From assembly GCA_022848785.1 (NCBI GenBank), contig JAJISK010000046.1:1-7576 (forward strand): a stretch of DNA of 7,576 nt, written 5' to 3'. Positions within the stretch are counted from its first letter, which is position 1. Each line of letters starts with the position of its first letter. The notes below the pieces were generated by a model that was not told where the DNA came from, did no database searches, and saw only the letters and a program-made list of their open reading frames with translations. The DNA is from Thermoplasmatota archaeon (GTDB lineage Archaea; Thermoplasmatota; Thermoplasmata; RBG-16-68-12; JAJISG01). A program made the translations under genes and the position numbers. Below, piece by piece: positions 775 through 7,576 of this stretch.

Positions 775-1740
775 CTAAAACCATCCCTTGCCCAAGGGTT
801 CGGCCTTCGTTCGGAGCTTGACCCGGATCGTCTTGGCCAGCTCCTCGTCGTACCCGAGGCACGTGTAAACCTCCCTGGGGTTGCAGGCGTCCACAAACCA
901 CATCAGGTCGTCGATGTCCCCGTGGTCGCTCAGGGGAAACTGGGCATCCAGATGATGGCTCCGGCGGAAGTCGTAAACGGCGCACCAGCCCGACGTGAAG
1001 GCCGTCCGGCCGCCCCGGTCCAGGACCTCCCGGACCTCCGCGCTCCCGGGCCGTTTGAAGGCGCGGGACGGGGCGAGGAGGACGTAGGCACCCTCCTTCT
1101 CCTCGTTCGCCTGGGTGTAGGGGATGAAACGGAGCGGGTGTCCGTGCTCCCGGTAGACCTCGGCGATGCGGGCCATCTGGTTCGGCACGAGCACAGGCAC
1201 GTCCAGCTCGTTGGCCAGGGCCACGAGCTCCTGGCCTTTCCCGAACTCGTAGGCCCCCAGGGCCACGGGCCCGGTTTCCAAGGAGTCCTCCATCCACGAA
1301 AGGAGGTCTGCCAGCACCTCCTCCTTCGGGGGAAAGGCGAACCGGGGATCCCCGTACGTGGACTCGATCACGAGGGTGTGGCAGTCCTGGGGCTCGCAGG
1401 CCCCACAGGTCGGGCCGCCGCTCGGATTGAAGTCGCCGGTGAAGAGGAGGTCGTCCACTCGGATCATGGCGGATCCGAAGACGTGCCCGGCCTCCGAGAG
1501 GGAGACCTTCATGCCCTCCACGTCCACCTCCTGGTGGTACGGCAAAGCCATCCCGTCGGCCTTTTGCCCCATCCGGACCTTCATCACGTCGAGGGTCTCC
1601 GGGGTCATGTACGCCCCAGGGGCCAAATGATCCATGTGGGCGTGGCTGACGACCGCGTGGGGCTGGCGGGATCGGGGGTCGAGGATGAGCTCCCGCCCGT
1701 TCCGGTGGACGCGGATGCCCCTCTGGTAGAACACCCTCAT
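775..1740 (-). CDS. Metallo-beta-lactamase/beta-CASP-type nuclease (COG1236-like exonuclease)
   Basis: The 321-residue protein has the two-metal MBL nuclease signature: SHAHMDHL with His33, His35, Asp37 and His38; His86 in EAGHVFGSAM; Asp103 in FTGDFN; Glu126 in IESTYGDP (motif A); and His273 in PLSDHGD (motif B). These define hydrolases acting on RNA or DNA (CPSF73/Ysh1, SNM1 and the ligase-associated bacterial exonucleases). At 321 residues without KH domains it is far shorter than archaeal aCPSF1 and close in size to the ligase-associated exonuclease group, which it also resembles around the Cys112/Cys115/Cys120 segment before motif A. Motif C, normally His-Gly in RNA-acting enzymes, reads T-C-L-G-Y (Leu295). 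The frame extends upstream to 1893, but ATG at 1740 is the right start: it begins where the homologous sequence begins and forms an ATGA overlap with the preceding stop. RNA versus DNA as substrate is not decided by sequence. Confidence 0.92.
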   Translation of the reverse strand: MRVFYQRGIRVHRNGRELILDPRSRQPHAVVSHAHMDHLAPGAYMTPETLDVMKVRMGQKADGMALPYHQEVDVEGMKVSLSEAGHVFGSAMIRVDDLLFTGDFNPSGGPTCGACEPQDCHTLVIESTYGDPRFAFPPKEEVLADLLSWMEDSLETGPVALGAYEFGKGQELVALANELDVPVLVPNQMARIAEVYREHGHPLRFIPYTQANEEKEGAYVLLAPSRAFKRPGSAEVREVLDRGGRTAFTSGWCAVYDFRRSHHLDAQFPLSDHGDIDDLMWFVDACNPREVYTCLGYDEELAKTIRVKLRTKAEPLGKGWF

Positions 1741-2240: not shown

Positions 2241-2247
2241 GGAGGTG
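2241..2247 (+). promoter_or_regulatory. Strong ribosome binding site that fixes the COG2403 start at ATG 2255
   Basis: GGAGGTG matches the complement of the archaeal 16S rRNA 3' end and sits 7 bases before ATG 2255. It decides the start: translation begins in the frame encoding MPRKQVIIMGAAGRD and not at the later GTG 2283, which has no such site and lies in the frame of the rest of the protein. A real start in the 'wrong' frame is part of the case for the intron at 2300-2330. Confidence 0.68.
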
Positions 2248-2254
2248 CGGACAC

Positions 2255-3605
2255 ATGCCCAGGAAACAAGTCATCATCATGGGTGCCGCCGGACGGGACA
2301 GCTCCGGAGGGAAGCCTGCGGAGCCCCGGGTTCCATAACTTCAACCTCGGGTTTCGGGATCGGGACGCGTATGAGGTGGTGGCCTTTACGGCCACCCAGA
2401 TTCCCAACATCGAGGGAAGGCGGTATCCGGCCAGCCTAGCGGGAAGCCTGTACCCCGAGGGCATCCCCATTCGTGGGGAGGAGGAGTTGCCCGCGCTCAT
2501 TCGGGAGCACGACGTGGATCTGGTCGTCTTCGCCTACAGCGACGTCTCATACGAATACGTCGGCCATCGCTCCGCCCTCGTCCATGCCGCCGGCGCGGAC
2601 TTTCTCCTGATGGGTCCTAAGCGGACCATGCTGGAAGCGGCCGTCCCCGTCGTCGCGGTCTGTGCCGTGCGGACCGGGGCCGGAAAGAGCCAGACGTCGA
2701 GGCGCGTGGCCTCCATCCTACAGGACCGGGGCAAGAAGGTCGTCGTGGTCCGTCACCCCATGCCCTACGGGAATCTGGAGATACAGGCGGTCCAGCGGTT
2801 CGCCTCCCTTGAGGATCTGGATCGGTACGAGACCACCCTGGAGGAGCGCGAAGAGTATGAGCCGCATCTGGAGCGGGGGATCGTCGTGTATGCGGGGGTG
2901 GATTACGGGGCCATTCTGGAGAAGGTGCAGAGGGAAGCGGAGGTCATCCTGTGGGACGGGGGGAACAACGACCTTCCCTTCTACCGGCCCGACCTCCACA
3001 TCGTCCTCGTAGACCCACACCGGCCGGGTCAGGAGCTGAGCTCGTATCCCGGAGAGGCAAATCTCCGACGCGCTGACGTGGTCATCGTGAACAAGGTTGA
3101 GACCGCTCGACCCGAGGACGTGGCCTTGGTCCGCGCGAACGTCGACGCGGTCAACCCGGCCGCGCAGGTGATCGAGGCCGCCTCGCCCATCACCGTCTCG
3201 GACCCGCAACTCGTCAAGGGGAAGCGCGTCCTCGTGGTGGACGACGGGCCGACCCTCACGCACGGCGGCATGCCGTACGGGGCCGCATGGCTGGCGGCCA
3301 AGCAATATGGTGCGGCCTCCGTGGTCGATCCCCGGCCCCATGCCGTGGGCTCCATCAAGGACGTTTTCGAACGGTATCCGCACTTGGAGGAGGTCCTACC
3401 GGCCATGGGCTACGGGGAGGATCAGCTGGAGGAGTTGGAGGCGACAATCAACGCATGCGAGTGCGACCTCGTCCTGAGTGGCACCCCGGTGGACCTCGGG
3501 CGCCTCATCCAGGTCACGAAACCGCTCTTGCGGGTCCGCTACGAGCTTCAGGAGAGGGGCAAACCAACCCTCGACGAAATTCTGGACGCCTTCCTTTCCA
3601 CGTGA
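2255..3605 (+). CDS. COG2403 P-loop protein, cyclic 2,3-diphosphoglycerate synthetase-like; split by a predicted 31-nt intron (exons 2255-2299 and 2331-3605)
   Basis: With 2300-2330 removed, the gene encodes 439 residues. The N-terminal Rossmann-like strand VIIMGAAGRD comes from exon 1 and runs straight into FHNFNLGFRD from exon 2, the continuous conserved block of this family. TATQIPNIEGRRYP and the segment AYSDVSYEYV follow. A P-loop, VRTGAGKSQTS, begins at about residue 128, a Walker-B-like strand ends in ILWDGGNND, and VIVNKVE resembles the NKxD motif of GTPases. The characterised relative is cyclic 2,3-diphosphoglycerate synthetase of Methanothermus, which uses ATP to cyclise 2,3-diphosphoglycerate, a thermoprotective solute. 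Most homologues outside methanogens are only predicted GTPases, so the reaction here is uncertain. Without splicing, translation from 2255 ends at the TAA at 2336-2338 after 27 codons. GTG 2283 keeps the main frame open but replaces the conserved first strand with unrelated residues, so a simple gene call there would be wrong. Confidence 0.9.
2300..2330 (+). other. Predicted archaeal BHB intron (31 nt) inside a protein-coding gene
   Basis: The RNA from 2291 to 2334 folds into a canonical hBHBh' element. The outer helix is GGA 2291-2293 with UCC 2332-2334. The central 4-bp helix is CGGG 2294-2297 with CCCG 2325-2328. The 5' bulge is ACA 2298-2300, and the 3' bulge, on the opposite strand, is GGU 2329-2331. 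The inner helix is GCUCCG 2301-2306 with CGGAGC 2319-2324, extended after a G-G mismatch by AGG/CCU and a GAAG tetraloop. Splicing endonuclease cuts after the second base of each bulge, here 2299/2300 and 2330/2331. Excision joins GAC to TTC, giving GRD-FHNFN exactly as the protein family requires and restoring the frame (31 is not a multiple of three). The structural and protein evidence are independent. A frameshifting insertion or assembly error is the alternative, but would not be expected to make this motif. Confidence 0.82.
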
Positions 3606-5414: not shown

Positions 5415-5639
5415 ATGAACGAGACGAGTCGGGTCCTGATGACCGCGGGGGCGGCGAAGACGGCCAAGAAGGCCGGTTCCCGAATCGGACGGCTTCTGGC
5501 CCTCCTGTCCGTGCTCACCGCCGTGGGTCGAGGGCCACGCCACGGCGTCGCCACTCCTCCCCCCTGGCGTCTGCGATCCTCGGCGAATCGGGTCTATCCC
5601 CTCCTGGGGGGCCATGACATGGGAGGGCTCCTCCGATGA
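5415..5639 (+). CDS. Possible small basic protein (74 residues), unknown function
   Basis: The case for a gene is positional. ATG 5415 sits where the strong TATA box predicts the transcription start, and the frame ends in an ATGA overlap with the next gene (TGA 5637-5639, ATG 5636). The first 40 residues are rich in Ala, Lys and Arg, with a mildly hydrophobic stretch (RLLALLSVLTAVG, residues 27-39) too short for a confident membrane helix. Codon third positions are strongly G/C there. The second half has less typical codon use and a low-complexity sequence (TPPPWRLRSS) without a recognisable fold. Alternatively, 5415-5635 is an untranslated leader, and then 5284-5635 holds only promoters and leader RNA. 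No homologous family is recognised. Confidence 0.42.
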   Translation: MNETSRVLMTAGAAKTAKKAGSRIGRLLALLSVLTAVGRGPRHGVATPPPWRLRSSANRVYPLLGGHDMGGLLR

Positions 5640-6700
5640 GACGCGAAGACTTGCTTCGGAAGCTCGAGGCACGTTTGGCCGAGGGCGAGATTGGCGAGGA
5701 GACGTATCGTGAGATCAAGGCGCGCTACGACGCCATGCCGGAAGAGCCTCCGGAACCCCCGGAACCCGTAGCCGACGCGCCGGAGGAGGCCCCGAAGCGG
5801 CCCCCAAAGAGATTCGGCCCCTTGGACATCTCGGCCATCGTTGGAGAGGCCATGGACTCGGCCATGGAGGAGGTGAGCAAGACCCTCGAGGCGACGCTGG
5901 GAGATGAGCTACACGAGCACATGGACGACGTCAACAGGCACGTGCGGCGAGCCCTGCGGCACGTCGGGCCGGAATACGACAAGGGGAAGCGGCGCGTGAT
6001 AATCCGCTCCGTGGGCAAGGTCGCGCTCGATGAATCCATTGAGGAGTTTCGGTGCTCCGGGGCCGGGAAGGTCACGAGCGACCTCATCGCGGAGAATGTG
6101 CGCATCGCCGGTGCTTGCAAGATCGAAGGGCGGTGCGAGTGTGAAGTCTTCCAGGCCTCAGGCGCGGTCAAGGTGAACAAGGACATCCAGGCCGAGACGT
6201 TCAGATCCTCCGGCTCCGCGAAGATCGGCGGCGACCTGCGAGCCAAGGACATCACCGTCTCCGGGTCGACGGCGGTGGGGGGTTCCATCGAAGCGGAGAC
6301 CGTCCGCGTCGGAGGCATGCTTCGCGTGAACGGCCGGGTAAAGGCCGAAACCTTCCGGTCCCGTGGCCGATTCCGAATCGGAGAGGGCCTCGAGGCGGAT
6401 ACGATTGAGATTCTCTTGGATGACACCGCCCAGGTTCCGGTCATCAAGGGAAAGGACATTGTCGTGAAACGAAGCAAGCGTGGAGGCGCGCTTCGAGCGA
6501 AGACCATCCAAGGGGATCGCGTGTCGGTCTCCGGAACACGGGCCCAGCTCGTTCGAGGGCGGGATGTGCGCATCGGCCCCCAGAGCCGCATCGACGTCGT
6601 CGAGGCGGACAAGGTGGAGGTTCATGAGACGGCTCGGGTCGGGGAGAGACGACCGCTCCCGACCGAGGAACCTTCGGAAGAGGAATCCTCCGCCGATTGA
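5636..6700 (+). CDS. Bactofilin/DUF4097-like beta-helix repeat protein with N-terminal SHOCT-like segment
   Basis: The 354-residue protein has four parts. Residues 3-32 (LLRKLEARLAEGEIGEETYR and on to ARYD) form a SHOCT-like helical pair. Residues 35-62 are a Pro/Glu-rich linker. Residues 64-110 are amphipathic helix (AMDSAMEEVSKTLEATLGDE and following). Residues 139-257 are seven consecutive repeats of exactly 17 residues, of general form x-x-S-G-x-x-K-V-x-G-x-I-x-A-E-x-x, followed by less regular strands to about 335 and an acidic tail. Such repeats build the right-handed beta-helix of bactofilins (polymer-forming cytoskeletal proteins) and the related DUF4097 group. No signal peptide or membrane segment is visible, so it is probably cytoplasmic and may polymerise or bind the membrane through partners. 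GGAGGG at 5622-5627 is a good ribosome binding site. It lies divergent from a regulator with a similar SHOCT-like segment. Confidence 0.86.
   Translation: MRREDLLRKLEARLAEGEIGEETYREIKARYDAMPEEPPEPPEPVADAPEEAPKRPPKRFGPLDISAIVGEAMDSAMEEVSKTLEATLGDELHEHMDDVNRHVRRALRHVGPEYDKGKRRVIIRSVGKVALDESIEEFRCSGAGKVTSDLIAENVRIAGACKIEGRCECEVFQASGAVKVNKDIQAETFRSSGSAKIGGDLRAKDITVSGSTAVGGSIEAETVRVGGMLRVNGRVKAETFRSRGRFRIGEGLEADTIEILLDDTAQVPVIKGKDIVVKRSKRGGALRAKTIQGDRVSVSGTRAQLVRGRDVRIGPQSRIDVVEADKVEVHETARVGERRPLPTEEPSEEESSAD
6050..6406 (+). repeat. Seven in-frame 51-base repeats coding 17-residue beta-helix turns
   Basis: The seven units start at residues 139, 156, 173, 190, 207, 224 and 241 of the repeat protein with no insertion or deletion between them. 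The Ser-Gly (or Gly-Gly/Arg-Gly) near position 3-4 and the Ala/Cys-Glu/Lys/Asp near position 14-15 recur in nearly every unit. DNA identity between units is low, so this is an old protein-level repeat and not a recent DNA duplication. Confidence 0.8.
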
Positions 6701-6774: not shown

Positions 6775-7576
6775 GTGGCGGCTGCGGTGTCTCTCGGCGG
6801 TGGATCGAAACGACGTCCCGCGGGTTTCCGGGCCTTCCTGATCGTCTGGGCCGGCCAGATTGCCTCCATCCTCGGCACCGGCATGACCACTTTCGTCATC
6901 ATCTTCTTCGCCTTCCAGGTCACCCAGTCTGCGACGGTTTTGGCGCTCGTCGCCCTCTCGGCCTTCGCGCCCACGGTCCTCTTTAGCCCCTTCGCCGGGA
7001 CCTGGGTCGACCGGTGGAACCGTAAACTGGTGATGGTCCTCGCGGACGTTGGGGCGGGTCTCAGTACCGCAATCCTGCTCGTGCTGCTACTCGCCGGGCG
7101 GCTGGAGATCTGGCATCTCTATCCCACCGCCGCCATCGCCGGGATCTTCTCCGCCTTCCACTTCCCCGCATACTCCGCCGCCGTAACCCTCATGATCCCG
7201 AAACAACACTACGCGCGGGCCAGCGGCTTGATTTCGATGGCCGGCGCTCTGTCGGGGATCATGGCCCCGATTCTTGCGCCCATCTTCCTGGGACTCTTGG
7301 GTGATGTCCAAGGACTCGTCACCGTCTTCACCATCGACATCATCACGGTGCTGGCCGCGGTGGGGACCGTGGCCTTCGTCCACATCCCAAAGCCGGCCGA
7401 GACGGAGGAGGGGGCCGCCGGCAAAGGCAGCTTTTGGACCGAATTGGCCTATGGCTTCCGCTACATCTTCCAGCGTCGGAGTCTTCTGAACATCCAGCTC
7501 ATCTTCTTCGGCGTGAATTTCGTGGCTAGTTTCGCCTTCGTCCTAGTGGCCCCCCTGATTCTCACCAAGACGGACG
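6775..7576 (+). CDS. MFS transporter (efflux type), N-terminal 267 residues; runs off the window
   Basis: The frame is open from GTG 6775 to the window end. GGAGG at 6763-6767 lies 7 bases upstream and supports this start. Hydrophobic segments fall at about residues 18-48, 52-74, 85-107, 113-135, 150-175, 181-204 and 237-260, i.e. the first six helices, the cytoplasmic central loop (205-225, charged, KPAETEEG) and helix 7. The loop between helices 2 and 3 has GTWVDRWNRK (75-84), the motif A of the major facilitator superfamily. Family members usually have about 400-430 residues, so roughly a third is missing. The sequence resembles the MFS_3-type drug or siderophore exporters, but the substrate cannot be told. 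The gap after the repeat protein is only 74 bases with no clear TATA box, so co-transcription with it is possible. Confidence 0.9.
   Translation, partial: MAAAVSLGGGSKRRPAGFRAFLIVWAGQIASILGTGMTTFVIIFFAFQVTQSATVLALVALSAFAPTVLFSPFAGTWVDRWNRKLVMVLADVGAGLSTAILLVLLLAGRLEIWHLYPTAAIAGIFSAFHFPAYSAAVTLMIPKQHYARASGLISMAGALSGIMAPILAPIFLGLLGDVQGLVTVFTIDIITVLAAVGTVAFVHIPKPAETEEGAAGKGSFWTELAYGFRYIFQRRSLLNIQLIFFGVNFVASFAFVLVAPLILTKTD

Follow-up and report, generated by a model that had tools for sequence, protein, structure and literature searches.

The 7,576-nt stretch of DNA analysed here, referred to as the window, contains a gene whose conserved N-terminal block and remaining coding sequence lie in different reading frames, separated by 31 bases. 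This raises the question of how a full-length protein can be made from it. The 31 bases at positions 2300-2330 are very probably a conserved bulge-helix-bulge (BHB) intron in a coding gene. The archaeal splicing endonuclease EndA likely cuts it out of the pre-mRNA, and RtcB probably joins the exons; the fold is a prediction, and cleavage and ligation are inferred.

Interruption of the host gene

The insertion splits the gene between Asp15 and Phe16, within the motif GAAGRDF, which is invariant in all 20 uninterrupted homologues that we selected and aligned. Given the sequence at this point, any other cut would lose the Asp or the Phe. An earlier note on this DNA had described the coordinates, the 31-nt insertion, the frame shift and a complete hBHBh' fold, all of which are as described in the sequence and in its minimum-energy fold; the cut sites that it marked coincide with the ends required by protein homology at the GRD-F junction. 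It had further held that the intron must be removed for a full-length protein to be made. The frame of ATG 2255 yields only 27 residues when left unspliced; with 2299 joined to 2331, a 439-residue protein can be read without a stop and GRD-FHNFN is restored. The relatives described below support the claim in the comparison that the note had proposed; the splicing itself is inferred.

The label COG2403 for the host gene is that of the earlier note. Relatives are named "predicted GTPase" or "cyclic 2,3-diphosphoglycerate synthase" in the databases. A Pfam scan of the host protein returned only cobW, below its cut-off, and an NCBIfam scan returned no match. When a profile of 20 relatives was compared with solved cDPGS chains, it gave a partial match to 9sxb (residues 209-321, E = 5.5e-8), with the exon-1 motif outside the matched part.

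Table 1. Features of the interrupted gene and of the predicted BHB motif (window coordinates).
Feature	Position	Strand	Basis or remark
Putative Shine-Dalgarno-like site GGAGGTG	2241..2247	+	7 nt upstream of ATG 2255; sequence
Exon 1, MPRKQVIIMGAAGRD, 15 codons from ATG 2255	2255..2299	+	Sequence
Putative intron, 31 nt	2300..2330	+	Frame, homology; insertions in L114 and L115 at the same base and of the same length
Exon 2, FHNFN to stop, GTPase/cDPGS-like protein	2331..3605	+	Translation, homology
Unspliced ORF from GTG 2283, MPPDGTAPEGSLRSPGFHNFN...	2283..3605	+	Reading used in database annotations of relatives
Canonical hBHBh' bulge-helix-bulge	2291..2334 (44 nt)	+	Predicted minimum-energy and centroid structure
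BHB outer helix GGA/UCC, 3 bp	2291-2293/2332-2334	+	Predicted fold
BHB core helix CGGG/CCCG, 4 bp	2294-2297/2325-2328	+	Predicted fold
BHB 3-nt bulges (ACA, GGU)	2298-2300 and 2329-2331	+	Predicted fold
Inner helix, 6 bp	2301-2306/2319-2324	+	Predicted fold
Tip helix, 3 bp	2308-2310/2315-2317	+	Predicted fold
Hairpin loop	2311-2314	+	Predicted fold
Predicted cuts	2299/2300 and 2330/2331, within the bulges	+	Match the boundary required by homology

Predicted fold and its chance expectation

The minimum-energy fold of positions 2285-2340 is exactly the BHB claimed earlier. Two 3-nt bulges and a 4-bp helix at the exon-intron borders are the minimum-energy fold both in the window and in the closely related locus L114. 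EndA cuts at a set position inside each bulge, and the sites given in Table 1 are those marked in the earlier note. Under the proposed mechanism, EndA would cleave within both bulges, and ligation of the exons by RtcB would then produce the GRD-FHNFN junction and the complete protein.

A BHB motif alone means little, because a loose scan (introns of 20-120 nt) gave three matches on the + strand and four on the - strand of the window, close to the 3.1 per strand expected from first-order Markov sequences. An exact 31-nt BHB turned up 0.033 times per 7,576 nt, or about 4e-6 per position. The stability of the 56-nt fold is modest (z = -1.6; 14 of 200 shuffles equally stable), and for the 44-nt motif z is -2.45, with 2 of 200 shuffles equally stable. 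The evidence for the BHB is its geometry and its placement on a boundary set by homology, not its folding energy.

Relatives carrying the insertion

Our DNA comparison covered the order of the soil archaeon G005 (record L040), with 37 genomes, 33 of which have a match to the gene. Matches bearing the insertion, and starting at residue 15, occur in G404 (locus L114, 96% protein identity) and G403 (locus L115, 72%), the sole genomes of their family among the 37. In the DNA alignment both insertions are 31 nt long and lie at the same base as in the window; the motif can form in both, in L115 with a changed sequence, in agreement with the earlier reading. At a single intron base L114 departs from the window, with U-G in place of a C-G pair. 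In L115, 8 of the 31 bases differ. The loop holds three of these and the 3' bulge two; another two replace a G.G mismatch of the window by A-U, and the last breaks a pair of the inner helix. The strict BHB is attainable in L115 but lies 1.7 kcal/mol higher in energy than an alternative fold. Over the three intron DNAs, 94% of cells pair in register against 29-61% when the register is slid, with shuffles reaching the same values. A two-sided pair change is seen in none of them, and the seven outer and core pairs are uninformative by themselves because they are invariant across the three DNA rows.

Exon 1 is identical to the window at 43 of 45 nt in L114 and 37 of 45 nt in L115; the 100 nt upstream, aligned without gaps, match at 57 and 33 positions, respectively. 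Exon 1 of L115 has seven changed codons: five, confined to codons one to five, encode another residue, and the two in VIIMGAAGRD are synonymous. Two codons differ in L114, both altering the residue. A Shine-Dalgarno-like site is present in each relative (GGAGGTG at the window spacing in L115, AGAGGTG in L114). Judged by these sequence patterns, exon 1 looks coding. The start-codon position of L115 (L115:1428-1430) reads ATA, which is either an uncommon start codon or an error in the sequence. The codons GGA CGG GAC, which form the 5' side of the BHB, are found in all three intron-bearing DNAs and in 1 of 128 uninterrupted loci. The earlier note had also seen room for regulation through intron retention. 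The unspliced 27-residue product is common to L114, but in the frame of L115 it has 35 residues, and there is no sign favouring regulation.

The insertion can also be followed in proteins. Our protein searches each list the top 120 of about 8,000 scored proteins; among those listed, 14 database proteins contain PDG.A.......P.FHN, representing 12 distinct intron strings. In 13 of them, 16 residues precede the motif Phe in the frame of GTG 2283; the remaining one, P0006, starts further upstream, and its annotated N-terminus can read VIIMGAAGRD when shifted by one base, a result obtained with 0 of 20,000 random 11-mers of equal composition. P0002 is identical to L114 in the tree described below, and P0005, labelled Thermoplasmata archaeon, is 91% identical.

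Such annotations correspond to an alternative in which no splicing takes place and GTG 2283 or a later codon serves as the start, the first 15 residues having been replaced or dropped in this lineage. The frame from GTG 2283 is indeed open, and the database proteins are annotated in this way. However, exon 1 is conserved and in frame behind a ribosome-binding site, the motif that would be lost is invariant elsewhere, and the shifted peptide keeps the residues that a BHB demands while its other positions vary in a strand-complementary manner. In all 14 proteins the GC clamp and the CCCG core are covered by an Ala, a Pro and a following residue whose codon has G in first place (Gly, Val, Ala or Asp); the seven residues between Ala and Pro are variable. 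With the best codon choice, 105 of 108 pairs over the 12 strings can be Watson-Crick in register; at slid registers of -2, -1, +1, +2, +3 and +4 the numbers are 81, 73, 98, 65, 80 and 66. P0018 stands apart in allowing only 7 of 9 pairs. Facing codons such as Lys-Leu, Lys-Phe, Gly-Ser and Ser-Gly are compatible with complementary strands, and reshuffling the 3' halves among the protein-read introns gives P = 0.015 in a test that ignores relatedness. We regard a start at GTG 2283 or later as improbable. On the pattern of these sequences, the shifted-frame N-termini are an accidental readout of the putative intron by gene finders. A BHB intron would explain why a group of database proteins begins with MPPDGTA rather than the conserved GAAGRD.

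The strong predicted hairpin directly behind the last codon would also suit programmed ribosomal bypass or frameshifting, with the hairpin skipped in the manner of T4 gene 60 and no RNA splicing. Bypass requires matching take-off and landing codons. The take-off codon is GAC, but directly before TTC the window has GGG and L115 has GTT, and only P0017 of the 14 proteins has Asp at the landing place. We reject bypass because these codons do not match; it would also leave the outer helix and the 3-nt bulges unexplained, and its probability is very low. An assembly artefact or decaying pseudogene is hardly credible either: the named relatives are metagenome-derived, but the same insertion site and length recur in two other genomes, the protein reading yields 12 distinct strings, and exon 2 is open in the window, L114 and L115.

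With a BHB intron as the preferred reading, its distribution can be considered. In the phylum of G005, 145 of 389 genomes matched the gene, with at best 66% identity, and the insertion was not found in any match reaching the N-terminus; some matches are fragments that lack it. Some loci whose genomes belong to this phylum set bear the titles Thermoplasmata, Thermoplasmatales and Methanomassiliicoccus, which together with the label of P0005 makes Thermoplasmatota the probable lineage. The scan of genome contigs, which covers the 80 best of 588, may miss close relatives; in each of the 80 the match starts at residue 1-5. The uninterrupted-motif pattern is present in 128 of 140 loci, which is not a species count because several loci hold the gene twice. 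The 12 loci without the pattern are L114 and L115 together with L012, L047, L082, L088, L109, L119, L120, L130, L135 and L138; in these latter ten, the matches begin at residue 1-5 and show no break. Viral contigs gave 235 pattern matches, none of which was confirmed as a relative.

A tree of 59 rows of our own choosing, rooted at the midpoint, places 17 intron rows and eight rows with odd or late starts in one clade (97/89). The tree leaves out L082, L095, L119, L120, L130 and L135, which have no usable frame, as well as P0003, P0005, P0010, P0012 and P0039. None of the 25 clade members has a normal annotated N-terminus, and the uninterrupted sequences all fall outside the clade. The intron rows alone do not form one clade, and the label "intron" alone needs three changes on the tree. 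The simplest reading would be a single intron gain at the base of the clade, where the eight odd rows (P0016, P0019, P0036, P0038, P0022, P0045, P0121 and P0122) are known as proteins only. The sister rows P0022, P0045, P0121 and P0122 have the odd N-termini MDRDSPPVRV, MIGGASPPSHA, LRPAGSQ and MIGAWSPRPRG just upstream of F[HQ]NFN. It is possible, as a guess, that these four carry the same intron with other lengths.

A repeated or mobile intron is not supported. Across the 37 genomes, the intron model R1 has one strong full-length match in G404 and one in G403, and it otherwise finds the shorter uninterrupted site or weak matches. The best weak match away from the site of the gene is at G405:C8:2531-2623 (93 nt, E = 0.004).

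Splicing machinery and known introns

The two enzymes whose genes the earlier note had proposed to look for are both encoded in the related genomes G404 and G403. EndA is a single ORF with two tRNA_int_endo repeats in each, and RtcB is present in each. The two repeats suggest a narrow-specificity, single-chain alpha'2 enzyme. In the available text of the respective studies, single-chain alpha'2 EndA, for example that of Thermoplasma acidophilum, is classed as narrow in specificity (PMC6379350), and the Archaeoglobus alpha'2 enzyme is described as restricted to the canonical BHB (PMC12397907). The homodimeric EndA of Ferroplasma, a member of the Thermoplasmata, is reported in the accessible part of its description to cleave minimal BHB substrates at 30 C and to process BHB-carrying mRNAs in fission yeast (PMC8707768); on this account, such a homodimeric EndA can act outside a tRNA.

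A tRNA check in G403 and G404 gave 60 matches, from which the 14 spanning at least 93 nt were taken. Near the anticodon, eight of these 14 longest matches show a BHB-like insertion; the scan is loose, with matches at other places and on the opposite strand as well, and the support it lends is weak. The eight long tRNA-like genes (L188, L190-L192, L194, L195, L198 and L200) carry insertions of 17-39 nt in this uncurated scan.

The closest known system is the cbf5 intron of the Desulfurococcales and Sulfolobales. The sections available from PMC2738675 give it as 16-44 bp with a mostly unconventional BHB, link its origin to the heteromeric endonuclease of Crenarchaeota and the relaxed specificity of that enzyme, and mention putative introns predicted, unconfirmed, in other genes. 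Archaeal tRNA introns span 11-175 nt in the same source. With these ranges, the description of the 31-nt intron as among the shortest plausible, made in the earlier note, is not supported. On the basis of those sections, the intron described here resembles that of cbf5 in being short, in its BHB-type borders, in interrupting an essential or conserved motif in the coding part of a protein gene, and in its clade-wide, vertical distribution. The gene and the lineage are different. The motif is a canonical 3-4-3 BHB, in contrast to the mostly unconventional BHB of cbf5, and the EndA of G403 and G404 is a single ORF with two repeats, in contrast to the heteromeric enzyme for cbf5. Splicing is demonstrated for cbf5, whereas here it is predicted. 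A cbf5 intron was not found in G403 or G404, where the gene is one open frame in each.

A 2020 count of archaeal BHB introns outside tRNA and rRNA, as given in the available part of PMC7714728, comprises crenarchaeal cbf5 and that study's own case in a 5' UTR. The latter, the Haloferax volcanii HVO_1309 intron, is likewise a BHB intron in a euryarchaeal mRNA; it differs in being 46 nt long and outside the coding part, and it was shown by circRNA-seq and in vitro cleavage (PMC7714728). Haloferax also carries a 31-nt tRNA-Gln intron according to the same text. Canonical archaeal tRNA introns at 37/38 have the same 3-4-3 geometry, but here the motif lies in a protein gene with no tRNA body. In our searches of the open-licence PMC literature, which contains no preprints and few subscription papers, titles and abstract openings mention no BHB intron for this gene family and none for a Thermoplasmatota coding gene; priority is accordingly unproven.

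By far the best reading of these sequences is a conserved BHB intron in a coding gene. It would work like a known archaeal pre-mRNA BHB intron, set apart from that of cbf5 by the gene and the lineage, the class of the motif and what seems to be the type of enzyme. We consider it likely that this coding-sequence BHB intron, outside the Crenarchaeota, arose by a single gain at the base of a Thermoplasmatota clade, has been retained by all members seen and is spliced via a canonical motif by a narrow two-repeat EndA. If so, pre-mRNA introns need no relaxed enzyme to originate or to be maintained, which would break the proposed link between such introns and a relaxed heteromeric endonuclease. It would also suggest that more of them are hidden in archaeal genomes as mis-started genes, which could be searched for by a BHB at the point where the reading breaks off.

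Other genes of the window include a metallo-beta-lactamase-type protein at 775-1740 (-), near the ligase-associated DNA exonuclease TIGR04122 and below its cut-off (189.7 of 325 bits). A 354-aa protein at 5636-6700 (+) has a bactofilin-like stretch slightly under the Pfam cut-off (25.8 of 27.9 bits), in an archaeal host, and an MFS transporter at 6775-7575 (+) continues past the window end.
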